This document shows positions 3,442 to 20,985 of a stretch of 56,854 bases of DNA, piece after piece. The notes beneath the pieces are model-generated. The model was not told the DNA's origin. It saw only the letters and a list, made by a program, of their open reading frames with translations, and made no database searches. This DNA comes from Asanoa siamensis (GTDB taxonomy: Bacteria > Actinomycetota > Actinomycetes > Mycobacteriales > Micromonosporaceae): NCBI RefSeq assembly GCF_016862555.1, contig NZ_BONE01000054.1, positions 1 to 56,854 on the forward strand, read 5' to 3'. Positions within the stretch are counted from its first letter, which is position 1. Each line of letters begins with the position of its first letter. The position numbers and the translations under genes were made by a program.

Positions 3442-3512
3442 AATGTGTTATCCCGTGGTCGCCCCGCTGGTCTCCTGTGCGCCACGATGAGGCGGCTTCA
3501 AGGAGAGGTGCG

Positions 3513-5450
3513 ATGCACGAAGGGTACGAGCAGGCGTTGGTGCTCGCCGCTCGGGACGGGGATCCGCGGGCGGTCGACCAGCTGGTCGCCGAGTATCTAC
3601 CGCTGGTCTACAACGTGGTCGGCCGGGCGCTCGACGGGCACCCCGATGTCGACGACGTGGTTCAGGAGACGATGTTGCGGTGCCTGACCGGGCTGCGGAC
3701 CCTGCGCGACCCGACCCGGTTCCGGGCGTGGCTGGTCGCGATCGCCGTCCGGCAGGTACGGGACCGGCAGGCCGACCCCTACCGGGCGCGCCAGGCGGGC
3801 CACCCGGGCGACGACGTCGGGCAGCCGGTCGCGGACTTCGCGGACCTGACGATCCTGCAGCTCGAGCTCTCCGGCCAGCGCCGGGAGGTCGCCGAGGCGA
3901 CCCGGTGGCTGGATCCCGACGACCGTGAGCTGCTCTCGTTGTGGTGGCTGGAGTCGTCGGGCGAGCTGACCCGCGACGACCTGGCGCTGTCGCTGGGGCT
4001 GACGAACCAGCACGCGGCGGTACGCGTCCAGCGGATGAAGGCGACCCTCGACACGGCCCGGATCGTGGTGCGGGCCCTGACGGCGCGGCCGCGCTGCGCG
4101 GACCTCGACGATCTCGTGGCGGGCTGGTCGGGGCGGCCGGACGCGTTGTGGCGCAAGCGGCTGGCCCGGCACGTGCGGGACTGTGGCTACTGCGGCCAGG
4201 CGCAGGTGCAGTTGGTGGCGGCGGAGCGCCTGCTGGCCGGCATCGGTCTGGTGGCGCCGGCGGCGGGGTTGGTCGCGGGCGTGCTGGGGATGGCCGGCGG
4301 CGCGGCGGCGGTGTCGGGCGGTGCGGTCGGCGCGGCGGCGGCGACGGGCTGGAACGCGGCGACGGGCGCGGCGGTGGAGGGGCTGGCGACGGGCACGACG
4401 AGCGTCACCGGCACGGCGGCGGGTACGGCCGCGAAAAGCGCCGGCTGGGTGTTGAAGGGTCTGGCGATCTCGAAGCCGGTCGCGGCGGCGGTCGCGACGG
4501 TCGCGGTGGCGGCGACGGCGGCTGTCACGTTCAGCGTGGTGCGCGCCGACGACGCGGTTCCGGCGGCGGCCCTGTTGCCTCCTCCCACGAGCGGGGCGCC
4601 GTCGCGCGTATCCCCTGATCCGACGCTGAGTCCGACGGCGGTCCCGTCGGCGACGGTCTCGCCCACCGCGAAGCCGTCCCCGAGGAAGACGGCGGCGAAG
4701 CCGTTGCCGCCGACCCGCACGACGGCGAAGAAGGGCGCCGCGGTCTGGGATTTCCCGGCGGTGAACGCGGGCCTGAAGGCGGTCGGCGCCTCCTGGTACT
4801 ACAACTGGGGTGCGAACAACGACCGTATGCCGGCGAGCGGGGTCGAGTTCGTGCCGATGATCTGGGGTACGGCCAACGCCACCGACTCGACGCTCGCGCA
4901 GGCGAAGCGGGAGGGTGACACGCTGCTGGGGTTCAACGAGCCCGACATGGCGGAGCAGGCGAACATGACGCCGGCGAAGGCGTTGGAGCTGTGGCCGAAG
5001 CTGCAGGCGACGGGGATGCGGTTGGGCAGCCCGTCGGTGGCGTTCGGCGCGGCGGACACGGGCAAGTGGCTGGACCAGTTCATGAGGGGCGCGAAGGAGA
5101 AGGGTTACCGGGTCGACTTCATCACGCTGCACTGGTACGGCGGTGACTTCTCCGCGGCGGCGGTCGGGCAGCTGAAGGGCTACATCCAGCAGGTGTACGC
5201 GAAGTACAAGCTGCCGATCTGGTTGACGGAGTTCGCGTTGATCCGGTTCGACGGGTCGGGTGCGCACTATCCGAGCGACGCGCAGCAGGTGGCGTTCATC
5301 AACGGGGCGACGGACATGCTGCAGGGCCTGTCGTACGTGGAGCGGTACTCGTGGTTCGGGTTGCCGTCGACGGCGGACAGCCACACGGGTCTCTACCAGG
5401 AGAGCGGCGCGTTGACGCCGATGGGTACGGCCTACCGGGCGGCGGGCTGA
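3513..5450 (+). CDS. ECF sigma factor fused to membrane-anchored GH128-like glycosidase
   Basis: A 645-aa fusion. Residues about 8-85 are sigma-70 region 2 (VDDVVQETMLRCLTGLRTL, then FRAWLVAIAVRQVRDR) and about 125-190 are region 4 (an HTH with SLGLTNQHAAVRVQRMK). A zinc-finger-like HVRDCGYCGQ follows at about 219-227, then an Ala/Gly-rich hydrophobic stretch, a membrane segment at about 324-343 and a Pro/Thr/Ser-rich linker. Residues about 408-645 match the GH128/Asl1-type glycosyl hydrolase fold: WYYNWG, GFNEPD (putative acid Glu, about 474), HWYGG and WLTEFAL (putative nucleophile Glu, about 572). Topology would put sigma inside and the glycosidase outside. A strong AAGGAGAGG ribosome site 4 bp upstream fixes the start. 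Known GH128 enzymes cut beta-1,3-glucans; sensing of fungal glucan is inference. The 3' end overlaps the convergent gene by 19 bp. Confidence 0.85.
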   Translation: MHEGYEQALVLAARDGDPRAVDQLVAEYLPLVYNVVGRALDGHPDVDDVVQETMLRCLTGLRTLRDPTRFRAWLVAIAVRQVRDRQADPYRARQAGHPGDDVGQPVADFADLTILQLELSGQRREVAEATRWLDPDDRELLSLWWLESSGELTRDDLALSLGLTNQHAAVRVQRMKATLDTARIVVRALTARPRCADLDDLVAGWSGRPDALWRKRLARHVRDCGYCGQAQVQLVAAERLLAGIGLVAPAAGLVAGVLGMAGGAAAVSGGAVGAAAATGWNAATGAAVEGLATGTTSVTGTAAGTAAKSAGWVLKGLAISKPVAAAVATVAVAATAAVTFSVVRADDAVPAAALLPPPTSGAPSRVSPDPTLSPTAVPSATVSPTAKPSPRKTAAKPLPPTRTTAKKGAAVWDFPAVNAGLKAVGASWYYNWGANNDRMPASGVEFVPMIWGTANATDSTLAQAKREGDTLLGFNEPDMAEQANMTPAKALELWPKLQATGMRLGSPSVAFGAADTGKWLDQFMRGAKEKGYRVDFITLHWYGGDFSAAAVGQLKGYIQQVYAKYKLPIWLTEFALIRFDGSGAHYPSDAQQVAFINGATDMLQGLSYVERYSWFGLPSTADSHTGLYQESGALTPMGTAYRAAG

Positions 5451-6259
5451 TCCACGAGCAGGTGTTCGTACGGGAAGCCGTCGGTCAGCTCGTCGCGGCG
5501 GGCGGACAGGTCGCGGAGTCGGGCCTCGATGTGGGCGAGGTCGACGAGGTCCGGCTCGGCGCTGTGGCGCAGTTTGAGGCGTTGGCCGATGGCGGCGCCG
5601 GCGAGGTCCTCGGCGAGGCGGTCGGCGGGGACGCCGCAGGTGGTGCGGTGTTCGGCGAGCAGGACGCGTTCGAACACGTACCCGCCTTCCTGGAGTTGGA
5701 GCCAGGCCCAGCCTTCGGCGGGGCCGCCGGTCCAGCGGACGCGGATGCCGCGGATGATCGGGTCGAAGAGCTGCCGGGCGGCGTACGCGTCGACGGCGGC
5801 GGCGCGAGCTACGGAGGAGAGGTCGTTGACGTAGCCGGTGCGGCCGTCGGGTAGGCGGCCGACGATGTCCCGGTAGCCGCGGCCGCCCTCGGCGGCCCCA
5901 GCATGGGAGTCGTCGCCTTCGCCGAAGGCGCGGGCGTCGAGGATGTAGTTGAGGATCTGGGTGCCGTGGTCGGCGCCGGTGAGCGCGGCCGAGGTGATCC
6001 GCAGCAGGGGCAGGCCGACGGCGTCGCAGACGGCGGTGGTCATCCGTTCGACGCGCCCGCCGGGTTCGGCGGCGCTGAAGATCAGCGCGAACTCGGGCGC
6101 TTCGGTGGCGGCGTCGGTGACGAGGTGGTCCAGGACGACGGTGCCGGCGGTGTTCCATTGTGCGCCGGTGATGCCGGTGGGCTTGCGGCCGATCACCTGG
6201 CCGAGTCGGCGGCCGGTGTGGACACGGCGGCCGCCGCGCAGGATGGAGGGCGTCGTCAC
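5432..6259 (-). CDS. Unknown protein, last gene of siderophore operon (DUF2726-like?)
   Basis: A 275-aa soluble protein that I cannot assign firmly. Residues about 60-90 (FALIFSAAEP, then VCDAVGLPLLRI) resemble the end of the DUF2726/restriction-endonuclease-like fold, in which a partner residue set precedes a GLPLLRI strand; the usual DxxH-type residues are not evident. The second half (RQLFDPIIRGIRVRWTGG; EGWAWLQLQEGGYVFERVLL) looks like an alpha/beta domain with no motif I know. It starts 9 bp after the decarboxylase stop, so it is probably co-transcribed with the siderophore genes; its role there is unclear. The 3' end overlaps the sigma-glycosidase gene by 19 bp on the other strand. Confidence 0.6.
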   Translation of the reverse strand: MTTPSILRGGRRVHTGRRLGQVIGRKPTGITGAQWNTAGTVVLDHLVTDAATEAPEFALIFSAAEPGGRVERMTTAVCDAVGLPLLRITSAALTGADHGTQILNYILDARAFGEGDDSHAGAAEGGRGYRDIVGRLPDGRTGYVNDLSSVARAAAVDAYAARQLFDPIIRGIRVRWTGGPAEGWAWLQLQEGGYVFERVLLAEHRTTCGVPADRLAEDLAGAAIGQRLKLRHSAEPDLVDLAHIEARLRDLSARRDELTDGFPYEHLLVDQPAAR

Positions 6260-6268
6260 GGCCCGACG

Positions 6269-7405
6269 CTAGCTCACGGGCGGCAGGACGGTCACCTCCG
6301 GGTACGGGTGACGTAGGAAGTCGTGGTGGGAGATATCCCACCCGTACGCGCCGGTGCGGGCGTAGACGAGCACGTCGCCGACGCGCAGGCGGTCGACGTG
6401 CTGGGCGCGGGTGAGGACGTCGCGGGGGGTGCAGAGCTCGCCGGTGGCGTCGACGTCCACGTTCGATACCTCGGGGCGGGCGTACGGGTGGGGCCAGTCG
6501 TCGACGGGCAGCACGGTGAAGGGGTGGCTGTAGCCCCAGGCGGCGGGGAGGCGGAAGTGGTGGGTGCCGCCGCGCAGGACGGCGAACCAGCGGCCGTGGT
6601 TGCGTTTGAGGTCGATGACCTCGGCGGCGTACCAGCCGGTGTCGGCGGCGATCCACCGTCCGGGTTCGACGGTGAGGGTGACGCCGGCCGGGGGTGGGGT
6701 GATCCGCAGCCGGTTGAGGTCGAAGGTGGTGTCGCCGGTGTAGTCGATGCCGAGGCCGCCGCCGGCGTTGACGTAGGTGAGGGTGATGCCGAGGCGCCGC
6801 GCGGTGGTGAGCGACCAGGCGACGGCGTCATCGACGAAGCGGGCGTGGGCGGCGGCGTCGAGGTTGTTGGAGACGGCGTGAAGGTGGAAGCCGCTGATCG
6901 GCAGGTCGCGCGGGAGGGTGTCGAGGTCGTCCTCGGCGATGCCGAACGGGGTGGGTGTGCCGGTCATCCGGTGGCTGCCGCTGGGTGTGTCGGCGGCGCG
7001 GTTCACCCGTAGGGCTGTCCTGGGGTGGTGGCCGCGGGCGAGGTGGGTGAGGCGGCGCAGCTCGTGGGCGCTCTCGACGTGGATCATGGCGTCGGCGGCG
7101 ACGGCGGCGCGCAGCTCGTCGTCGGTCTTGGCGGGGCCGGCGAACGCGATGGTCTGCGCGCCGGCGGCGAGGGCGAGGTCGAGCTCGCCGCCGGAGGCGA
7201 CCTCGAGGCCGTCGGCGTGGGTGGCGATGGCGCGCACCAGGTCGGGGTTGCTGTTGGCCTTGACGGCGTAGAGGACGCGGGTGCCGGCCGGGAGGGCCGC
7301 GCGGAGGTCGGCGATCCGGCGTGTCGCGATGTCCGGGTCGTAGACGTAGGCGCAGACCGGTCGGCGGCCGGCGCGGATGGCGGCGGCGACCCGTTCAGGG
7401 ATCAT
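6269..7405 (-). CDS. Type III PLP-dependent decarboxylase (siderophore-type)
   Basis: A 378-aa alanine-racemase-fold decarboxylase. VLYAVKANSNPDLV at about residues 44-57 carries the PLP lysine. GLEVASGGELDLAL, the HLHAVSNN stretch and VNAGGGLGIDY (phosphate-binding glycines) follow in the family order. EPGRWIAADTGWYAAEV leads to the C-terminal beta domain with GELCTPRD (CxxxD-type active site). Relatives decarboxylate ornithine, diaminopimelate or, in siderophore operons (SbnH, PvsE), a citryl-amino acid intermediate. It overlaps the upstream synthetase by 11 bp and belongs to the same transcript, so decarboxylation of a citryl-diaminopropionate or citryl-serine-like intermediate is a reasonable inference. 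Confidence 0.85.
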   Translation of the reverse strand: MIPERVAAAIRAGRRPVCAYVYDPDIATRRIADLRAALPAGTRVLYAVKANSNPDLVRAIATHADGLEVASGGELDLALAAGAQTIAFAGPAKTDDELRAAVAADAMIHVESAHELRRLTHLARGHHPRTALRVNRAADTPSGSHRMTGTPTPFGIAEDDLDTLPRDLPISGFHLHAVSNNLDAAAHARFVDDAVAWSLTTARRLGITLTYVNAGGGLGIDYTGDTTFDLNRLRITPPPAGVTLTVEPGRWIAADTGWYAAEVIDLKRNHGRWFAVLRGGTHHFRLPAAWGYSHPFTVLPVDDWPHPYARPEVSNVDVDATGELCTPRDVLTRAQHVDRLRVGDVLVYARTGAYGWDISHHDFLRHPYPEVTVLPPVS

Positions 7406-8972
7406 GCAGCGGATTCTGCACGGGTACGTAGCGGTCTCCGTGGCCGGCCAGCCGCATCCGCACGAGTGCCTTGTGCGGGACGGTGCGGGCGGTCAGGGCG
7501 GCGTGGTCCTCCTTGGCGGCGCGGGCGCAGGTGGGGTCGCGCAGCAGCGGCTCGTAGGCCTCGTCGAGGGCGGCGCGGATCTCCCGCCAGGCGCGGTCCT
7601 CGTCGAGGTCGTGGGAGCGGGTGAGGCGGACGACGATCTCGCCGAGGTGGGCCTGCAGGGCGGTGTAGCCGAGTTTGGCGCGCATGACGTCGACGTCGTC
7701 GGTGGCGACGACGGAGCCCGGCCACAGCGGCGGCGGGTCGGCGAGGCGCGGCAGGTAGAGGCGCAGGCCGGCGAAGTCGCGGAAGACGATCCGGTGTGGG
7801 CGGCCGTCGACGAAGGTGGGCAGGCAGTTCTGCAGGTGGGCTTCGAGGGCGATGCCGTGGCGGGCGGCGAGGCCGACGACGGGTGGCAGGAGCAGGCGGG
7901 CGTACGCGCCGACGAAGTGGAGAGCACTCCCCGCTCCCGGGGGGACGAGGTGGTCGAGGGTGTCGCCGGCGGTGAGGCCGCCGCCGGGGATCGCGGTCTC
8001 GCTGGGTGCGAGGTGGCGGTCGAGGCCGTCGCGCAGGATCGCGGACCCGTCGCGGCCGGCGCCGGCGGACAGGGCGGTGCCGGCGGTCTCGGCGAGCAGG
8101 ACGGTGGTGGGGTCGTCGGCGAGGAGGCGGTGCAGGACGGTGGAGATGGCGGGGCCGTTGCGGGTGCTGGCCGTGGAGATGCTGCGGCGGGTGGAGGTGA
8201 CCTGGATGTCGAGGGAGAGCTTGAGGTAGCGGCGGTGGCCGTCGCGGGCGGGTGGCAGCAGCAGGGTGCGGACGGCGGCGGTGGGCGCGGCCTCGATGGT
8301 GCCGTCGAGGTCGCGGATGCGGCCGGCGGCGTAGAGGTCGGCGTAGCGGTGGCGCAGGACGGTGTCGCGCTGCCACTGGTGGACGGGGATGACGGTGGCG
8401 CCGTCGGGGACGCCGTCGTAGCCGGCGGCCAGATCGAGAGCGTCGCCGGTCAGGAGATCGGGGTGTACGGCGATGAACGCGACCGTGGTCGTGCCGGCCT
8501 CGACGTCGTGGCGCAGGGTGTCGTCGGTGTCCCAGCCGAGGCGGGTGCGCCCGCACGGGTGCAGGTTGTGGCCGTCGATCGCGACCCGCTCGTAGGCGAG
8601 GGCGCGTCCGTCGGGGTCGTCGCCGGGGTCTTTCGGCTGGGGGCGGGCGAGGGCCAGGGCGAGGTTCACGGTGGCGTTGGTGAGCTCCTCGGTGAGCGCG
8701 GCGGCGCCGGGGAGGCCGCGTGGGAGCAGGTCCGCGGGCGGGTCCTCGAGCTTGTCGACCTCGAGGCGGTCGAAGCCGTGGCGGCGGCCGACGCCGGCGA
8801 ACCGCTCGCGGGCGTCGCCGATGTCCTCCCGGTAGAGGGCGCCGGCGAGGCGGCGGCCGACGGTGGCGGCGGCGCGCGGCAGGGCGGCCCGGAACGGCGC
8901 CACGAGCGCGGGCGCGGTGAGCGCCAGCCGGGCGGTGGTGTGCCGGGCGGCGGTGTCGAGGTCGGTGGTCAC
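7395..8972 (-). CDS. IucA/IucC-family NIS siderophore synthetase (525 aa)
   Basis: An NRPS-independent siderophore synthetase that would adenylate a carboxylate such as citrate and condense it with an amine or alcohol. Family signatures in order are IDGHNLHPCGRTRLGWD (ATP-binding HP motif), IPVHQWQRD, YLKLSLDIQVTSTRRSIS (central active-site Lys and Thr/Ser/Arg), LEAHLQNCLP and VFRDFAGLRLY, with the C-terminal helical domain after. The GTG start at 8972 overlaps the stop of the upstream synthetase in GTGA, so the two are translationally coupled; the open frame that continues upstream is only antisense-quality sequence. The length is near the low end of the family's 560-640 aa. Confidence 0.88.
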   Translation of the reverse strand: MTTDLDTAARHTTARLALTAPALVAPFRAALPRAAATVGRRLAGALYREDIGDARERFAGVGRRHGFDRLEVDKLEDPPADLLPRGLPGAAALTEELTNATVNLALALARPQPKDPGDDPDGRALAYERVAIDGHNLHPCGRTRLGWDTDDTLRHDVEAGTTTVAFIAVHPDLLTGDALDLAAGYDGVPDGATVIPVHQWQRDTVLRHRYADLYAAGRIRDLDGTIEAAPTAAVRTLLLPPARDGHRRYLKLSLDIQVTSTRRSISTASTRNGPAISTVLHRLLADDPTTVLLAETAGTALSAGAGRDGSAILRDGLDRHLAPSETAIPGGGLTAGDTLDHLVPPGAGSALHFVGAYARLLLPPVVGLAARHGIALEAHLQNCLPTFVDGRPHRIVFRDFAGLRLYLPRLADPPPLWPGSVVATDDVDVMRAKLGYTALQAHLGEIVVRLTRSHDLDEDRAWREIRAALDEAYEPLLRDPTCARAAKEDHAALTARTVPHKALVRMRLAGHGDRYVPVQNPLHDP

Positions 8973-10381
8973 CTGTGCTCCGTCAGCGGGTTCGGTACGT
9001 AGGCCCAGATCGGTTCGAGCGGGTCCGTGGCCAGGCGCATGCTCGTGGTCGCCTTGACCGGCAGCGTCTCCCGGCGCAGGAGGCGGTCGCCGGCGGTGCG
9101 GGCCGCGGCCGCCCACAGCTGCGCGGGCGGGGTGGCGGTGGCGGCGGCGAGGGTGCCGACGATCTGGCCGAGGACGACGGTGAGGGCGGCGAGCAGGGTG
9201 GTCTCTGGCTCGTCGGGGTCGATCGCGGCGATGTCGCCGCGCAGGGGTGGCGTCGCCGTGCTCGTCGGGTCGATCCGGATGCCGCCGACGTCGCGGTAGT
9301 AGAGGGCGCCGGGGCGGCCCCGGTCGAGCGTGAGCAGGGTGTTCTGGCCGTGCGCCTCGAGGCCGATGCCGCGGTCGAGGAGGTCGAGGGGGCCGGTGAC
9401 GAGCAGGCGGGTCAGGTCGGTGAGGAAGGGTCGCGGGTCGCCGGCGTACGCGAGCCGGACCGCTTCCATCGCGATCGGGGCGCCGCCGGCGGGTGAGGGC
9501 GCGGACAGGGCGGCGACGGGGATCGCGTGGGGCGGCGGGGCCTGGCGGTGGACGACGGCGAGGCGGCGGTCGGGGCCGGCGTCGGTGGTGACGGCGCCGG
9601 CGGCGTACTCCCGCAGGATCGTCATGGTCGTCGTCTGTCCGGCGAGGAACGCGGTCAGCGCCGGTCCGTTCTCGACGGCGGCGGGGGAGACCGTGCGGAC
9701 GGCGCTGGTGAGCTGCGCGTCGATGGCGGTCTTGAGGTGCAGGGCCGGGTCGTCGAGCGGCGCGAGGGTCCGCAGCGACATCAGCGGGCGGGCCGGGCGG
9801 GTGCCCGTGGGGCGCAGCCAGGGGTGGTCGGCGCGGACGCGCTCCCACTGCCACGGGTGCAGGTGCAGCAGCGGCGGCAGGCCCTCCCCGGTGGTGTGCC
9901 AGCGGTCGGGCGGGACCTGGACCTGGACGAGGTCGACGACCGGGCGGTGCTCGGGGGCGTAGGCGAGGACGTCCTGGGTGGACATGCCCGATCGGGTACG
10001 GCAGCCGGGGTGCAGCGGGTGCCCGTCGACGACGAGTTGCTCCCAGTGCGGCGGGGCCGGGCGGGTGATCGCGGGTGGGCCGTGGTCGGGGCGCGGCTGG
10101 GTGGCGTGGGCGAGGGCGAGGTTGGCGACGCTGTTGTCGACCTCGGCGGCGAACCGGTCGTGGCCCATCGCGCGCAGCAGCGCGGCCGGGTCCGCGTACC
10201 CGTGGGGGGCCTTGATCTTCTCGCGGTCGAAGGCGGTGACCAGCCGGTGGCGGATCGCGTCGCGGGCCGCGGGCAGGTGCAGCAGGTAGGCCGGGTGCAG
10301 GTCGGGGCGGTGACGTTCCAGCCACCGCGCGGTCGTCGACGGGTCGGGCCCGTCGAGGGGCTCCGCCGTCGTGCCACTCAC
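8969..10381 (-). CDS. IucA/IucC-family NIS siderophore synthetase (470 aa)
   Basis: The first gene of the siderophore operon and a second NIS synthetase, diverged from its neighbour. Visible motifs are VVDGHPLHPGCRTRSGMS, LHPWQWERV, LHLKTAIDAQLTSAVRTVSP, LEAHGQNTLLTLD and YYRDVGGIRI. At 470 aa it is about 100 residues shorter than most family members, chiefly in the N-terminal part, so activity needs checking. Two synthetases plus a decarboxylase resemble the staphyloferrin B and vibrioferrin logic, but no precursor synthase, exporter or ferric-siderophore uptake gene lies in the window. The GTG start at 10381 has a weak ribosome site and sits 14 bp after an iron-box-like palindrome. Confidence 0.86.
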   Translation of the reverse strand: MSGTTAEPLDGPDPSTTARWLERHRPDLHPAYLLHLPAARDAIRHRLVTAFDREKIKAPHGYADPAALLRAMGHDRFAAEVDNSVANLALAHATQPRPDHGPPAITRPAPPHWEQLVVDGHPLHPGCRTRSGMSTQDVLAYAPEHRPVVDLVQVQVPPDRWHTTGEGLPPLLHLHPWQWERVRADHPWLRPTGTRPARPLMSLRTLAPLDDPALHLKTAIDAQLTSAVRTVSPAAVENGPALTAFLAGQTTTMTILREYAAGAVTTDAGPDRRLAVVHRQAPPPHAIPVAALSAPSPAGGAPIAMEAVRLAYAGDPRPFLTDLTRLLVTGPLDLLDRGIGLEAHGQNTLLTLDRGRPGALYYRDVGGIRIDPTSTATPPLRGDIAAIDPDEPETTLLAALTVVLGQIVGTLAAATATPPAQLWAAAARTAGDRLLRRETLPVKATTSMRLATDPLEPIWAYVPNPLTEHR

Positions 10382-14462: not shown

Positions 14463-17400
14463 TCAGTTGGCGTTGCCGATATAGGGCACCGACTCGAAGA
14501 TGCTGCCGTCCTTCTGCCGGAAGACCACCGTCAGCTCCGCACCCTCCGGCAGCATGTCGCGCAGCGTGTCGTCGCACGCTCCGCACACCTCACGCTTGAT
14601 GTCGTCGCCGCGGAAGTGGATGTAGAGGGTTGCCTTGCGCATTGCCGGGTTCTGGCGCATCATCGCCGCGACCTGGGCCTCCAGGTGGTGCTTGAAGCCC
14701 GCCTTCGTGTGTGGCGCGGGACTGCCGGCGACGCTCGGGTGGATGTTGCGGTTTCCCGACGACAGCGGGTCGGCGAACCAGCCGCTCTCGGTGCGCAGCG
14801 CGCCCGTGACGCCGCCGGGGCGGTCGAAGCCCCCCGCCGCCTCCTCGGCGTGGGACAGGCCCGCCTCGTGGCAGTCGGTGTTGTGGACGAGGACGGACTG
14901 CGCCCCCGCGCCGACGTAGTAGGTGTGGATGCCGTCGACCGTGAGGTCGTAGGTGATCCGCTCCGCCTCGAACGTCCGGACCGCGCCGACCTGGACGTAG
15001 GTGCCGGCCGACGTGCGCAGCAACTCCCCCGGCCGCAGGTCGCCGGCGTCGACCCAGCGGCCCCGCGTGACCGACCAGAACGGGTGGTGGTCGGTGGTCG
15101 TGAGGGTGTCACCGCCCTGCACCGTGACCTCGACGTACTCCTTGTCGCTGTCGGTGCGGATCGTGTGCGTGACCTGCCGTGCCTCGGTCCGGCCCGTCCG
15201 CGGGTCGGTGGCCAGCACGGTGTCACCCGGCTCGACCTGCTCGATCGCCTTGCGGGTGCCGTCGGCGAGGACGACCACGGTGCCGGCGACGAAGCTGTTC
15301 GCGCACTTGCAGGCGCAGCCGCCACCGTCGGAGTTGCGTTTGGTCTTGGCCTTCGCCTTGGCCGCCAGTGCCTTGGCGCGGGCGGCGGCCTGCGCGGCCG
15401 CCCGTCTGGCCGCGGCTTCCGCGGCGGCCTTGGCCGCGGCCGCCTTCTGCGCGGCTTCCCGGGCCGCGGCCGCGGCGGCCGCCTTGGCGGCCTCGGCGGC
15501 CCGTTCCGCGCCCCGCAGGATCGCGCGGGCCCAGTCGAGCTCCTTGAAGAAGGTGATGACCGCCTTGCCGGCCCGGAAGATGGCCTCGGCGATCTTCTTC
15601 GCCTTGAAGATCTTGCCCCAGGGCAGGGCGCCGATGACCATCGAGACGCAGGCGCCCAGGTCGCCCTTGAGGCAGTTGAGGATGTCGTTGATCCCGAGGA
15701 ACTCCATCAGGATCTGGCCGCCGGCCTCCAGGACGACGTCCAGGACGCTCTTGCTCTGGATCTGGTTGGCCCTGGCGACGTCTTCGGGGTTGACCTGCGG
15801 CACGTCGGTCGCCGCGGGTGTGGTCGTGCCGGTGCCGCCGCCGTCGCCCGGCTCGAACATCGCGCCGGTCGGGTCGGTGTAGACGTTCGGGTTGTTGTCG
15901 GCGTAGATGTAGGGCGAGACCGCGGAGGCGCCCACCGGCATCGGGTCGGTGGCGGTGAACCGGCCGGTGCCGGGGTTGTAGTTGCGGGCCCGTAGGTAGT
16001 AGTTGCCGTTGCCGGTGGTGGAGTCCTGGTAGGCGCCGGTGAACTGCAGCGGGTTCTCCGGGCCGCCCGCCTGCGCCTGCACCGCGCCGGGCGCGGTCTC
16101 GGTCCCCGGCGACGTCGTCCCGGCCAGGGTCGCGCCGACGCGCGGGTTGCCGAACGGGTCGTAGTCGTAGCCGACCTCCGGCGTGCCCGCCGGGGTGAGC
16201 ATGTTCGCCACCCCGCCCAACCAGTCGTGGGTGTAGGCGTGCGCTCCGGTGGCCGCGTCGAGCAGGGCCAGCGGCTCGTCGTCGGGCCCGTACGTGAACC
16301 CGCGTTTCTCGACCGTGGCGCCGTTGGCGTCGGTGACCGTGTCGACGGCGATCTGCGGCAGGGTGCCGGCGACGTCCCAGGACCAGCGCTGGGTGGCCGA
16401 CTCCGGCTTGCCCGGGTCGGTGGTGGCGGTCAGCCGCAACCCGTCGGCGCCGTAGCCGAACGCGGCGTCCCGTCCGCCGACGGTGGCCTTGGCGAGGGTG
16501 TTGTCCAGGTTGTACGTGAACCGGTCGGTGCCGGCCTTCGTCTGGTTGCCGTTGGCGTCGTAGTCGTAGGCGGTCGTGGTGACGTGCCGGGGCTCGCGGA
16601 CGACCTGCTTCCTGAGCTGGCTGGCGTCGTCGTACTCGTAGGTGGTGGTGTCGTCCCCGGCCGAACCGCTGCGCTTCTGGCTCGTGCGGTTGCCGAGCAG
16701 GTCGTAACGGTAGTCGATGCGCCCGGCCGGCCGCGTCCGGTCGTCGCAGTCCGTGGCCGCGTAGCAGGCCGAGGTCAGCCGGTCGGCCTTGTCGTACGCG
16801 TAGGCCACGGACTCGGAGACGCCGCCGCGGGTGGTGACGACCCGGGTGGGGTTGCCGACCTGGTCGAGCTCGAGCTGGAACGCCGAGACGGGGTTCTGCG
16901 GCAACGCGACCGGAGTGACGGGCGCGGACGGTGGCGAGACCTCGCCGGGGCCGTCCTCGTCGTGGGCGGTGACGGTGAACGTGTACGCGGTGCCGGCGTC
17001 CAGCCCGTGCACGACCGCGCTGGTGGCGTCGGCGCCGACGGTCGTGGACCGGCCCCCCGGTGCGGCGGTGACCGTGTAGCCCGTGAGGTCGTCGTCCTTG
17101 GGCGGCTTCCAGGAGACCACCGCGAGGGCGGCACCCGGTTGCGCGGTCACACCGGTCGGCGGGTCGGGCCGGTCACCGAGGGCGAGCAGGCCCGGGTCGG
17201 GCAGCCGCGCGGGCGCAGCCTGCGGCACCTGTTCGGGGCCGATGCCGGTCAACCGGCCCGCGTCGTCGAACCTGCGGCGCTCGAGCAGGCCGGTGGCGGC
17301 CGGCAGCCAGGTGACCTCCCGGTTGCCCGCCACGTCGTAGTCGAAGGCCCAGCTCGCCTGGGTGTCGCCGACGGAGCCGCCGGCCACGTTCAGCGTCTTG

Positions 17401-20400
17401 AGCTGGCTGTCGGCGTCGTAGGTGGCGGTGGCCCGGGTGCCGTCCGGGTACTCGCGCAGCTTGATGTTGCCGCGGACGTCGTACTCGTAGCGGAACGTCT
17501 CCTCGAGGCCCGCCTCGACCCGGGTGACCGCCCGGATCTGGTCCTCGTCGTCGTACTCCACGGTGCGGTGACCGGTCGGGTCGACGTACGCGGTGATCCG
17601 GTCCTTGGCGTCGTACCGCCACGAGTAGCGGGGCCCGTCGGTGCCCAGTGCCCGGGCGTCGCGCCGGCCGACGATGTCGTAGGTGTCGACGATCGTGCGC
17701 TTGGCCCGCTCCGTCGGCGAGAGCCGCTCGTGCTCCCACCGGGTCAGGGTCGAGACCCGGTTGCCTTCGACGTCGTACGTGTTCTCGGTGACGCGGCCCA
17801 GCGGGTCGGTCTCCTTGACCAGGCGGCCGCCGTCGTCGTAGGACAGCCAGCTGCGGTTGCCGTTCGGGTCGCGGACCGACGAGACCATCCCGTCGTCGAA
17901 GTAGTCGTAGACGGTCGCGTACCGGGTCGGGTCGTCGCGGTCGTGCGGCGCGTCGGGTGTCCGCACGGTGCGCGGCAGGTTGTCGTCGCGGTAGGTGTAC
18001 TGCGTGGTGCGGTTCTTCGCGTCGGTGACGGAGGACAGCCGGTTGTTGGCGTCGTACCGCATGGTCGTGGTGTGGCCGAGCGGGTCGGTCGTCCGCGTCG
18101 TGTTGCCGGCCAGGTCGTACTCGTAGCGGGTCGTGAACCGGGCCGGGTCGGCGCCGGCGACGTTGCCGCGCGGCTCGGTCGAGCTGGCCAGCAGCCCGTC
18201 GTCGTCGTAGACGAAGGTGCTGACGCCGCCGGTCGCCCGCTTCGCCTTGACCTTGTTGCCGGCCTCGTCGTACTCGTACTCGACGACGCCCTGCTCAGGA
18301 TCTTTGATCGACGTCTGCTGGCTGTTGTCGTCGTAGCCGAGCTCGGTGCGCCGGCCCAGGTTGTCTTCGGCGGCGGTGACCTGGCCGAGGTTGTCGCGCT
18401 CGAACGTGGACTGCTTGTCGTGCTCGTCCACCTTCGCCGTGGTGCGGTTGAGGTCGTCGACCCGGATGTCGCGCTTGACGGTGACGCCGCCCGGGTAGGG
18501 GCGCTCCATCCGCAGCGGGTTGTCGTTGGCGTCGTAGAAGTAGGTGGTGGTGTGGTCGGCCGCGGTCGCGCCGGGCAGGTTGCCGCGCGGCGAGGTGACC
18601 TTGTGGAGCAGACCCTTGGCGTTGTACGCGTACGTCGTCACCGGGTCGGGCTGGTCGTCGAGCTCCATCCGGGCCGACGCCCGGCGCCCCGCGTCGGTGT
18701 AGGTGTAGGACAGGGTCCGCCGTGGGTCCTTGACGGTCTTGAGCAGGCCGTTGTCGAAGTAGCGGTATTCGGTGCGGGCGCCCATCGGGGTGGTCTGGGC
18801 CACGAGCCGACCGACGTCGTCGAAGCTGGTCCGCCACGGGTCGTCCTTGCCGGGCTCGTGCACCTCCGTGGCCCGGTCCTGGGCGTCGAACTCGTAGCGG
18901 GTCGTGTAGTCCCGCCGGTCGGCGTGGGGCACGGTGCCGCGCGGGTCGGTCACCTCGACCTGCCGCCCCGTGCGGTCGTACCGGAACTCGACGCGGCGGC
19001 CGCCGGGTGAGGTGACGGCCTTCGGCAGCCCGACGTTCGCGTCGCCGGCGGGCAGGTACTCGTACCGGGTCACCTTCTTGCGCTGGTCGGTGCTGGCCAG
19101 CAGCAGCCCGCGCGCGTCGTACTCGTAGGTGACCGTGTTCTTCTTCGGGTCGGTGCTCTTGACCAGCTCGTCGAACTCGTTGTAGTCGTCCTGCCAGACC
19201 TTGCCGTTGGCGTCGGTGTGCTTCGTCGGGTTGTTGCGCGCGTCGTACTCGGTGTCCTCCTTGAAGCCGAGCGACTGCGGCGCGTCCCGCCGGGTCCGGT
19301 TGCCGCGGTCGTCGAAACGCGACTCGTGCTGGCTCTGCTTGCCGTCGACCACCAGGCCGCGGTTGAGCGAGGTGTCGTAGCGGTGGTGCTCGGAGTCGCC
19401 GTTGCCGCGCAGGGTGTAGACCAGCACGTTGCCGCGGTAGCCGTCGTAGACCCGGACCCCGTCGGCGTCGGTGGTCAGCGCCTCCTCGTCGGCGGCGCGC
19501 CACTCGAAGGTCGTCGCGTTGCCCAGCGCGTCGAGCTGGCGGTTGACCCGGTTGCCGGCGTCGTACCCGGTGCGGACCTCGACGACCTTGTCCGGGTTGG
19601 TGACGTCGGCGAGCAGGCCGTTGGGGTGGTAGGCGTACTTCCAGAGCTTGCCGCGGGCGTCGAGGTGGGCGGTGAGCAGCGAGCCGGTGTAGAAGAATCT
19701 GACCTTGCGGTGGTCGGGCAGGCTGATCTCGCGGATGAGGCCGCCCTCGAGGGTGGCCTTCGCGACGCGACCGGAGGCGTCGGTGATCGTGACGGCGTTC
19801 TCGGTGTGGGTCAGCCGCACGCCCATGCCGCGCGGGTTGGTGATGGAGACGAGCCGACCCTGGGCGTCGAAGGTGTACGCGATGTTGCGCGGGGTGGTCA
19901 GCTCCCACCCGTCGCCGGCCCTGCGCAGGTTGGAGCGCACGCCGGCCGGGCGGCGGTAGGTGTCGCCGTCGAGCCGGTAGGTGGCTTCCGCGCCGTCCTC
20001 GGCGCGCACGACCGCACCGCCGTCGGTCGGGGTGACGGCCATCGCGTAGGACCAGGCCCAGCCGGCGCCGAGCGGGCCGGTGCCGTTGGCCGACGAGTAG
20101 GTGCGGGACGAGACGAACGGGACACCGAAGGAGACCATCGCCAGGTCCTGCTTGACCTGGATGAAGGCCCCGGTGGCGGTGTTGACGCCGTTGCCGCGGA
20201 TGGCCTGGCCGGCGCTGGTCAGCGCGAGCGCGTTGCCGCACCCGCAGCCACCGGCCTGGCCGAGCGGGATCGCCGGCGGCACGATGGTGGCGCGGGGCCG
20301 GACCTCGGGGCGCTCGGAGACGATCTCGCGGCCGTCGTCGAGGACCGCGGTCATGGTGACCTCGTAGGTCCGCGCCGGGTCGAGGGTCCAGCCGTGCTCG

Positions 20401-20930
20401 CGCCCGAAGGACCGGCAGAAGTCGCGTTGGCCGGAGCACTGCGAGCGGGCGATCTCGTCGCGGGTCAGCGTGGTCGACGCCTGCTCGGTCTGCGACTCCT
20501 TGTCGTAGGCGGTGACCCGCCAGCTGGAAAATGCCGGCGCCGCGGCGTTGACGTTGAAGTAGAGGCTGACGGAGGTGTCGCCGAGCAGGAAGCCGGGCCG
20601 GGCGAGCACCTCGGTGAAGACCCTGTCCTCGGCGGCGACGCGGGCGCTGGTGCGGCGCTCCCACGCGGCTCTGGACAGCTCCTTGGGTGCGCCGTCGGCG
20701 CGGACCTCCGGCGGGACGAGCGGTGGGCGCTTGTCGGGCGGGAACGCGGTGTCGGGGCGCACGCCCTTGGGCATCGGCCGGTCGACCGGACCCTGGCCGG
20801 GGCCCGGTGGCGTGGGCGGCGCCGCCGCGGCGGCGTTGGGTGTCAGCGGCTGCAGCAGCGTGACCGTCATGATCAGCGCGCAGAACGCCGCCAATGCGCG
20901 CACACGGCCGCGCACGGTGCGACTGGACAT
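14463..20930 (-). CDS. Secreted RHS/YD-repeat toxin with Hint and DddA-like deaminase domains
   Basis: A 2155-aa protein. A signal peptide (RALAAFCALIMTVTLL, then NAAAAAPP) is followed by dozens of YD repeats of the YDxxGN/RLxxxTD type, an inserted fibronectin-III domain at about 1255-1342 (PPTGVTAQPGAA; LTGYTVTAAPGG) and the RHS core terminus (YYLRARNYNPGTGRF; YADNNPNVYTDPTG) at about 1640-1690. An Ala/Lys-rich helix (about 1810-1865) leads to a Hint domain from about 1877 (NSFVAGTVVVLADGTRK; TTDHHPFWS; VLVHNT); the expected nucleophile position is Ser. The last 137 residues carry HLEAQ, then CGACDDTLRDMLPEGAELTV, the HxE and CxxC zinc site and layout of SCP1.201/DddA cytidine deaminases. 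The start has a GGGGGAGGG ribosome site. I predict a delivered toxin that deaminates DNA; a clear adjacent immunity gene is missing. Confidence 0.88.
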   Translation of the reverse strand: MSSRTVRGRVRALAAFCALIMTVTLLQPLTPNAAAAAPPTPPGPGQGPVDRPMPKGVRPDTAFPPDKRPPLVPPEVRADGAPKELSRAAWERRTSARVAAEDRVFTEVLARPGFLLGDTSVSLYFNVNAAAPAFSSWRVTAYDKESQTEQASTTLTRDEIARSQCSGQRDFCRSFGREHGWTLDPARTYEVTMTAVLDDGREIVSERPEVRPRATIVPPAIPLGQAGGCGCGNALALTSAGQAIRGNGVNTATGAFIQVKQDLAMVSFGVPFVSSRTYSSANGTGPLGAGWAWSYAMAVTPTDGGAVVRAEDGAEATYRLDGDTYRRPAGVRSNLRRAGDGWELTTPRNIAYTFDAQGRLVSITNPRGMGVRLTHTENAVTITDASGRVAKATLEGGLIREISLPDHRKVRFFYTGSLLTAHLDARGKLWKYAYHPNGLLADVTNPDKVVEVRTGYDAGNRVNRQLDALGNATTFEWRAADEEALTTDADGVRVYDGYRGNVLVYTLRGNGDSEHHRYDTSLNRGLVVDGKQSQHESRFDDRGNRTRRDAPQSLGFKEDTEYDARNNPTKHTDANGKVWQDDYNEFDELVKSTDPKKNTVTYEYDARGLLLASTDQRKKVTRYEYLPAGDANVGLPKAVTSPGGRRVEFRYDRTGRQVEVTDPRGTVPHADRRDYTTRYEFDAQDRATEVHEPGKDDPWRTSFDDVGRLVAQTTPMGARTEYRYFDNGLLKTVKDPRRTLSYTYTDAGRRASARMELDDQPDPVTTYAYNAKGLLHKVTSPRGNLPGATAADHTTTYFYDANDNPLRMERPYPGGVTVKRDIRVDDLNRTTAKVDEHDKQSTFERDNLGQVTAAEDNLGRRTELGYDDNSQQTSIKDPEQGVVEYEYDEAGNKVKAKRATGGVSTFVYDDDGLLASSTEPRGNVAGADPARFTTRYEYDLAGNTTRTTDPLGHTTTMRYDANNRLSSVTDAKNRTTQYTYRDDNLPRTVRTPDAPHDRDDPTRYATVYDYFDDGMVSSVRDPNGNRSWLSYDDGGRLVKETDPLGRVTENTYDVEGNRVSTLTRWEHERLSPTERAKRTIVDTYDIVGRRDARALGTDGPRYSWRYDAKDRITAYVDPTGHRTVEYDDEDQIRAVTRVEAGLEETFRYEYDVRGNIKLREYPDGTRATATYDADSQLKTLNVAGGSVGDTQASWAFDYDVAGNREVTWLPAATGLLERRRFDDAGRLTGIGPEQVPQAAPARLPDPGLLALGDRPDPPTGVTAQPGAALAVVSWKPPKDDDLTGYTVTAAPGGRSTTVGADATSAVVHGLDAGTAYTFTVTAHDEDGPGEVSPPSAPVTPVALPQNPVSAFQLELDQVGNPTRVVTTRGGVSESVAYAYDKADRLTSACYAATDCDDRTRPAGRIDYRYDLLGNRTSQKRSGSAGDDTTTYEYDDASQLRKQVVREPRHVTTTAYDYDANGNQTKAGTDRFTYNLDNTLAKATVGGRDAAFGYGADGLRLTATTDPGKPESATQRWSWDVAGTLPQIAVDTVTDANGATVEKRGFTYGPDDEPLALLDAATGAHAYTHDWLGGVANMLTPAGTPEVGYDYDPFGNPRVGATLAGTTSPGTETAPGAVQAQAGGPENPLQFTGAYQDSTTGNGNYYLRARNYNPGTGRFTATDPMPVGASAVSPYIYADNNPNVYTDPTGAMFEPGDGGGTGTTTPAATDVPQVNPEDVARANQIQSKSVLDVVLEAGGQILMEFLGINDILNCLKGDLGACVSMVIGALPWGKIFKAKKIAEAIFRAGKAVITFFKELDWARAILRGAERAAEAAKAAAAAAAREAAQKAAAAKAAAEAAARRAAAQAAARAKALAAKAKAKTKRNSDGGGCACKCANSFVAGTVVVLADGTRKAIEQVEPGDTVLATDPRTGRTEARQVTHTIRTDSDKEYVEVTVQGGDTLTTTDHHPFWSVTRGRWVDAGDLRPGELLRTSAGTYVQVGAVRTFEAERITYDLTVDGIHTYYVGAGAQSVLVHNTDCHEAGLSHAEEAAGGFDRPGGVTGALRTESGWFADPLSSGNRNIHPSVAGSPAPHTKAGFKHHLEAQVAAMMRQNPAMRKATLYIHFRGDDIKREVCGACDDTLRDMLPEGAELTVVFRQKDGSIFESVPYIGNAN

Positions 20931-20979
20931 GGTCGGACCCTCCCCCGTGGACGGATCTCTCGTCAGCAATCCACGGCCG

Positions 20980-20985
20980 ATCATA
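20980..20985 (-). promoter_or_regulatory. Candidate -10 element of the RHS gene
   Basis: TATGAT on the minus strand, 50 bp upstream of the RHS start, in an unusually AT-rich stretch (20975-21110). No convincing -35 at 17 bp is visible. The composition shift here suggests either a promoter island or the edge of acquired DNA. Confidence 0.35.

Follow-up and report, generated by a model that had tools for sequence, protein, structure and literature searches.

We analyzed a 56,854-nucleotide stretch of DNA from Asanoa siamensis (contig NZ_BONE01000054.1, positions 1 to 56,854; this whole stretch is called the window) with respect to one gene, which encodes an extracytoplasmic function (ECF) sigma factor joined in a single chain to a zinc anti-sigma-like (ZAS) motif, a likely transmembrane (TM) helix, a tether and a glycoside hydrolase (GH) domain of family GH128. 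The gene, its parts and its control signals were located as follows.

3447..3475, plus strand: predicted autoregulatory ECF promoter, GTTATC (3447-3452), N17, GTCTCC (3470-3475)
3500..3508, plus strand: ribosome-binding site AAGGAGAGG, read directly, 4 nt before the ATG
3513..5450, plus strand: fused ECF sigma, ZAS, TM, tether and GH128 gene, 645 aa plus stop
3582..3767, plus strand: sigma region 2, residues 24-85, Pfam PF04542
3873..4082, plus strand: sigma region 4, about residues 121-190, from TIGR02937 and AlphaFold2 helices
4083..4208, plus strand: ZAS motif, ligands C195, H220, C224 and C227, from their spacing and invariance
4485..4541, plus strand: likely single TM helix, about residues 325-343, from hydropathy in 28/28 fusions, charge pattern and AlphaFold2
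4542..4721, plus strand: predicted extracytoplasmic Pro/Thr/Ser/Ala-rich tether, about 60 aa
4722..5447, plus strand: GH128 domain, E476 at 4938-4940 and E573 at 5229-5231, from PDB 6uaq and PF11790

The reading frame ran for 645 codons without interruption (3513-5447, or to 5450 with the stop codon), with AAGGAGAGG 4 nt upstream of the ATG. Both the single frame with its good ribosome site and the order of parts, from ECF sigma through zinc motif, helix and tether to GH128, agree with a preliminary description of this DNA made from the letters alone. GGAGAGGTGCGATG was found again, as the ribosome-site sequence, in five Asanoa orthologues. The fusion was present in all six Asanoa genomes, the other five copies being 83-87 % identical, and the frameshift that could have undone the description was not seen in any of them. 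Relatives were collected by scanning genome contigs with the sigma-plus-zinc part and taking the best 80 of 418, a sample by similarity in which a contig end cuts 8 of the 80. They added 22 loci with the same build from Micromonosporaceae, Streptosporangiaceae, Streptomycetaceae and Sanguibacteraceae, giving 28 distinct fusions (6 Asanoa and 22 other loci), so that a build first noticed in one genome is shared well beyond it. Because independent genomes, six in the genus and those of the 22 other loci, carry the identical single-frame build, we rejected the explanation that two genes had been merged through a frameshift or mis-assembly, which is extremely improbable.

The N-terminal part matched Sigma70_r2 at residues 24-85 (Pfam, E 1.7e-12), and TIGR02937 (sigma70-ECF) spanned residues 20-179 (E 1.5e-18). 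The fusion protein did not reach the threshold of the Pfam region 4 model; confident AlphaFold2 helices at 135-148, 154-161 and 165-190 fell in region 4. Among the profiles that had been expected along the protein, Sigma70_r2 and Glyco_hydro_cc were thus matched and Sigma70_r4 was not, and the earlier claim of ECF regions 2 and 4 stands, for region 4, on TIGR02937 and the helices. A sigma-plus-zinc AlphaFold2 model, built from 52 rows picked from fetched loci (pLDDT 84), resembled the ECF sigmas CnrH, SigW and sigma-E (Foldseek). With regions 2 and 4 only, the protein is an ECF sigma factor.

The zinc ligands that follow have the spacing C195-X24-H220-X3-C224-X2-C227, and the ligand pattern of ZAS domains is (C/H)-X24/25-H-X3-C-X2-C. 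The ligands were unchanged in the six Asanoa fusions and in a 9-row alignment that included four paralogues, all four were invariant in 28/28 fusions, and HX3CX2C was present in all 80 sigma relatives fetched. Judged by these ligands, the zinc-finger-like motif reported earlier conforms to the ZAS pattern, and the anti-sigma seems to be fused in cis rather than missing. A Pfam scan of the 7 neighbouring ORFs found no anti-sigma gene, as the preliminary description had said; its further view, that having no separate anti-sigma is odd, loses its force because the zinc motif shows the ZAS ligand pattern in the same chain. In structural comparisons, the model fitted CnrH-CnrY and SigW-RsiW with TMq 0.40 and RpoE-NepR with 0.38-0.39, and the other anti-sigma-bound ECFs with only 0.26-0.32. 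SigG1, which has a C-terminal extension and is listed without an anti-sigma, gave 0.39-0.40, and polymerase-bound SigH 0.20-0.24. Since other anti-sigma-bound ECFs fit worse and SigG1 fits equally well, these mixed, weak fits at most hint at an occluded sigma.

A hydrophobic 19-mer preceded a Pro/Thr/Ser/Ala-rich tail and the GH domain in 28/28 fusions. The computed tail measured 51-79 residues except in L009 (37; a Pro-containing stretch was chosen). Net charge over 15 residues was higher before the helix than after it in 25/28 and equal in L061, L071 and L085, the count for L009 having been made on the Pro-containing stretch chosen by the program. An arrangement with the N-terminus inside and the C-terminus outside is fitting with this positive-inside pattern. 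In a full-length AlphaFold2 model built from all 28 fusion sequences, the sigma and GH parts were confident, and residues 234-411 were of low confidence with one long helix, 321-342. The membrane segment first proposed near 325-343 is therefore likely from hydropathy and charge, together with a low-confidence AlphaFold2 helix, and the Pro/Thr linker corresponds to the stretch of about 60 residues after it. As to topology, modelling upheld one long helix, although its low confidence and a second hydrophobic stretch, taken up below, leave doubt.

Residues 425-641 matched Glyco_hydro_cc (PF11790, E 2.9e-54), and residues 404-645 matched PDB 6uaq (E 3e-81) and 6uax (2.8e-24). The entries 6uaq, 6ufl and 6uas are, we take it, all of the endo-beta-1,3-glucanase AmGH128_I; the chains in these structures (263 aa) comprise the enzyme domain, whereas here the domain is fused to a sigma factor. 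In the aligned chains 6ufl and 6uas, Q or A stands where the fusion has E573, as expected if these are active-site mutants. In the available text of PMC10956234, 6uax is a subgroup II GH128, and residue roles are described for GH128 N167, E168, H245, Y247, E272 and F310. These correspond by motif to N475, E476, H540, Y542, E573 and F615 of the fusion, all six of which were invariant in 28/28 fusions. From the PF11790 match, the catalytic Glu pair and the N-E and H-x-Y motifs, the domain is a member of GH128, and both catalytic glutamates noted earlier, E476 and E573, are kept.

We also compared the C-terminal extensions among the 80 relatives. The extension was GH128 in 23 of them, one being a repeat of the Asanoa G004 copy; in the 22 new loci it was recognized by phmmer in 22/22 (E <= 8.2e-82), with Pfam confirmation in 3. 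CAP-cluster members numbered 42 (CAP by Pfam in the 4 scanned) and AbfB-cluster members 4 (AbfB by Pfam in the 1 scanned), and 3 relatives formed another cluster, with no extension family by Pfam in the 2 scanned. Many Streptomyces carry the CAP (cysteine-rich secretory) domain on this sigma-zinc chassis. AbfB is a carbohydrate-binding (arabinofuran-binding) type of domain, and an AbfB-cluster paralogue of the chassis was present in 5/6 Asanoa genomes (L002, at G000:C31:84092-84841 on the minus strand, and L011-L014), its name resting on the Pfam match of a Streptomyces member, L062. On a sigma-part tree of 90 rows, the four extension types gave 4 label changes and GH128 gave 2, in two places. 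Over 15 Asanoa pairs, dN/dS was lowest in the GH domain (0.157) and the sigma part (0.169) and higher in the linker (0.376) and the zinc part (0.416), values that show, at the sequence level, purifying selection on the fusion.

These comparisons bear on whether GH128 serves here purely as a binding module, whose fold is kept for recognition and whose catalysis is irrelevant or very weak. This would resemble RsgI6 of Clostridium thermocellum, whose GH10 domain, according to the accessible part of PMC4711584, binds, has very low activity and was read as a binding domain; that this sigma chassis can also carry CAP or AbfB extensions likewise suggests a general domain slot. However, the invariance of the six residues in 28/28 fusions goes beyond obvious binding needs, and the dN/dS of the GH domain is as low as that of the sigma part. 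We consider a pure binding role possible but doubtful; because its active site is conserved, the GH128 domain may, in contrast to the RsgI6 GH10, contribute to signalling by catalysis.

Next, the DNA in front of the fusion genes was considered. The motif G[TC]T[AG]TC-N16/17-GTC[TC]CC was present upstream of 28/28 fusion genes, 33-89 nt before the start. Its strict form, GTTATC-N16/17-GTCTCC, occurred in 25/28, three promoters departing from it, whereas 1000 sets of dinucleotide shuffles gave on average 0.001 sequences per set. Because ECF sigmas usually autoregulate, we infer that the fusion sigma recognizes this motif.

The strict motif was then sought in the 22 genomes carrying the non-Asanoa fusions, and 52 sites were obtained in 21 of them (reversed control, 0). 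Nineteen were the fusion's own promoter and 33 lay elsewhere; of the latter, all fetched and searched with tblastn, 9 were upstream of GH16 genes, 6 of DUF1996 genes and 9 of BTAD genes. Pfam analysis of three GH16 examples confirmed GH16 in each, accompanied by ricin-type lectin domains in two and F5/8 domains in the third, and one DUF1996 and one BTAD example were likewise confirmed. The PDB chains nearest to the one GH16 domain compared were those of glucanases, beta-1,3-glucanases and laminarinases, and inspection by eye showed signal-like segments at the N-termini of the GH16 targets. Beta-1,3-glucan, the natural guess for the ligand from the beginning, is strengthened as the likely one by a motif common to the fusion and the relatives' GH16 beta-1,3-glucanase-like genes.

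The DUF1996 genes behind the motif (L167, L172, L180, L185, L191 and L194) may offer a clue to the role of DUF1996. Those proteins that were printed show, by eye, an N-terminal membrane-anchor-like segment and a Ser/Thr/Pro-rich linker. The literature on DUF1996 and glucan was mostly fungal by title, among the matches listed. Separately, GGTTCCGGAACC or a near form lies in the promoter spacer of several GH16 genes (L168, L179, L182, L184, L187 and L193), and this palindrome may be the site of a second regulator.

Taken together, these data suggest, with a probability of roughly 0.6, that the fusion is a one-component beta-1,3-glucan sensor that is freed by proteolysis, amplifies itself and induces the glucanases of relatives. 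At rest, the sigma domains would be held at the membrane in an inactive state by the fused ZAS domain, while the GH128 domain outside would bind, and probably cut, beta-1,3-glucan. Contact with glucan would trigger proteolysis in two steps, in the tether and in the membrane helix, which would free the cytoplasmic part; after loss of the ZAS domain, the sigma could bind RNA polymerase. The freed sigma would read GTTATC-N16/17-GTCTCC, everywhere in front of its own gene, giving positive feedback and more surface glucanase, and in Actinoplanes-like relatives it would also drive secreted GH16 beta-1,3-glucanases, DUF1996 proteins and BTAD regulators. Proteolytic release is expected for ECF48, ECF52 and ECF53 and characterized for IutY in the available text of PMC8999054, and the truncation of SCO4117, an ECF52 sigma of Streptomyces coelicolor, is a precedent (PMC5826349, as far as the accessible text goes).

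Several observations weigh against this interpretation. Residues 179-252 match no Pfam family at E <= 10, so that no curated zinc-finger or anti-sigma profile is found there. The Asanoa helix is Ala-rich, and the second hydrophobic stretch, 240-258, makes the topology doubtful. Its hydrophobicity is pronounced in all six Asanoa proteins; its hydropathy is below 1.5 in 13/22 others, its insertion sum is unfavourable (4.0-7.6) in 9 of the 22 non-Asanoa fusions, and the full-length model has only a short helix there, 251-260. A cytoplasmic GH domain, brought about by two membrane helices, was thought unlikely because the stretch is weak outside Asanoa and the model shows one long helix. In addition, the looser motif precedes at least 18/42 CAP-type sigma genes, so another sigma could read it. 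It also stood before 2/3 other-type sigma genes but before 0/4 Streptomyces and 0/5 Asanoa AbfB-type genes, and so it goes with the GH128/CAP chassis. Among the 33 non-fusion sites, 9 precede none of GH16, DUF1996 and BTAD, and the 24 family-linked sites lie in 13/22 genomes, all of Actinoplanes-like Micromonosporaceae, and are not independent.

The other unfavourable observations come from Asanoa itself. GTTATC-N15/18-GTCTCC gave 10 sites in the six genomes (reversed control, 0), namely the own promoter in 6/6 and four single sites with spacing 15 or 18. On this count no second target is established in Asanoa, and self-regulation alone is supported in the window's genome. One-mismatch sites numbered 42 (a count that includes the six own promoters) vs 14 in the reversed control at spacing 17, and 55 vs 9 at spacing 16; some recur in several Asanoa genomes, and from this excess weaker targets are possible. 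Homologues of GH16, DUF1996 and BTAD were found at 0/52 loci at the Asanoa one-mismatch or non-self sites, the same queries matching 24/33 of the relatives' loci. The 52 loci included all 18 non-self sites of genome G000 (8 with spacing 17 and 9 with spacing 16, each with one mismatch, and 1 with spacing 18); a contig end leaves almost no sequence behind one of these 18 sites, and at least three (L242, L245 and L247) lie inside likely coding frames. Loci of the other five genomes were taken from the strict and the spacing-17 one-mismatch scans. A close GH16 orthologue (71-72 % identity) is present in 6/6 Asanoa genomes. Upstream and genome-wide scans found no fusion motif in front of it or of the F5/8-type GH16, and regulation of the Asanoa GH16 orthologues by the fusion sigma was therefore rejected. 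These orthologues carry GAGAGCGCTCTC-type inverted repeats upstream (L207-L212 and L233-L238), which presumably resemble operators of LacI-type sugar repressors; because of these repeats, glucanase control seems to be genus-dependent. A palindromic one-mismatch site, GTTATCAGTAATCCGATAAC, was present in G000 (L239), G002 and G004, in G000 ahead of a long same-strand frame, and looks like the operator of another regulator.

The Asanoa results would suit a sigma that serves enzyme supply alone, producing a self-controlled, membrane-anchored surface glucanase with no wider regulon in that genus. With a spacing of 16 or 17, the strict motif occurs solely at the own promoter in 6/6 genomes, and the fusion is the sole PF11790 match in 5/6, the sixth having an extra one at 21.6 bits (cut-off 21). 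This explanation is unlikely, given that the motif precedes GH16, DUF1996 or BTAD genes in 13/22 relatives' genomes and that the excess of one-mismatch sites over the reversed control means that weaker Asanoa targets may exist.

The nature of the GH16 targets bears on the source of the glucan, which, rather than coming from fungi or oomycetes, could be part of the envelope, spore or sporangium of the cell itself, the sensor then serving development. Several carriers of the fusion presumably form sporangia, and SCO4117 controls development (PMC5826349, in its accessible text). Nevertheless, we regard this as quite improbable, for the GH16 targets have signal-like segments and those scanned carry ricin-type lectin or F5/8 domains, as secreted enzymes do. 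In the available part of PMC12691653, neither laminarin nor curdlan yielded a product with GimA, an enzyme of the sporangium matrix, and neither that part nor a literature search yielded a link between the sporangium matrix and beta-1,3-glucan.

Because its active site is intact, the proposed glucan sensor might also, and this we put forward tentatively, consume its ligand and reset itself: the outer domain would cut the glucan that activates it, and the signal would last while fresh glucan is present. If this were so, the freed sigma would make more surface enzyme and, in some relatives, secreted glucanases too. A single polypeptide would then unite transcription control, brake, sensor and first digestive enzyme.

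Among known systems, the fusion is closest in build to ECF52 and ECF53, with which, as far as these are described in the available sources, it shares the sigma part, zinc finger, membrane helix or helices, proline-rich region and extracytoplasmic sugar-related domain. By description it belongs with these groups of Actinobacteria, its topology being predicted. Some ECF52 and ECF53 proteins already have predicted glycosyl hydrolase domains according to the accessible text of PMC10766802 (citing Huang 2015 and Pinto 2019), so the novelty first ascribed to a sigma factor with a complete glycosidase was overstated. SCO4117, in the portion of its description available, ends in a carbohydrate-binding module, whereas the fusion ends in an apparently intact GH128 and has a glucanase-linked predicted regulon in relatives; the motif reported for SCO4117, CSGYN-17-SRHA, also differs from GTTATC-N16/17-GTCTCC. 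IutY of Pseudomonas putida (ECF243) likewise combines a sigma with a membrane anti-sigma part in one protein and is set free by proteolysis, but it responds to a siderophore via cell-surface signalling, and the accessible part of its source mentions no glycosidase.

RsgI6 appears to be the nearest working analogue. RsgI proteins of C. thermocellum, as the available sources describe them, have an extracellular GH or carbohydrate-binding polysaccharide sensor, a membrane helix and a proteolytic cascade, and their sigma is autoregulated and drives matching glycosidases; for the GH10 sensor RsgI6, SigI6 is autoregulated and activates xylanase promoters (PMC4711584, PMC12203970). RsgI, however, is a separate anti-sigma with its own periplasmic domain that acts on SigI, whereas the fusion has sigma, brake and sensor in one chain, and the 7 neighbouring ORFs held no anti-sigma gene as in an arrangement of separate sigma and RsgI-type genes.

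The fusion principle is thus known in print, and the GH128 identity, the invariant active site, the promoter and the glucanase-linked targets appear to be new as far as the sources available go. We found no ECF52/53-type sigma linked to beta-1,3-glucan in the open-licence PMC literature and, among the matches listed for GH128, no sigma-factor work by title. For one such sigma group, the enzyme family is now named, together with catalytic and zinc residues that do not vary, a promoter motif and, for the relatives, predicted targets that share its substrate class. A single protein thus allows direct tests of ligand, promoter and release, and its gene could be used as a glucan-responsive expression switch.

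Around the fusion gene, Pfam scanning of the neighbours assigned the upstream product to the arginase family. Downstream are ORF 5435-6259 on the minus strand, to which no Pfam family was assigned, and a PLP-dependent decarboxylase. Large ORFs adjoining the decarboxylase (7395-10381, minus strand) resemble, by eye, IucA/IucC-type siderophore synthetases, and an open frame of 2173 aa lies at 14463-20984 on the minus strand.

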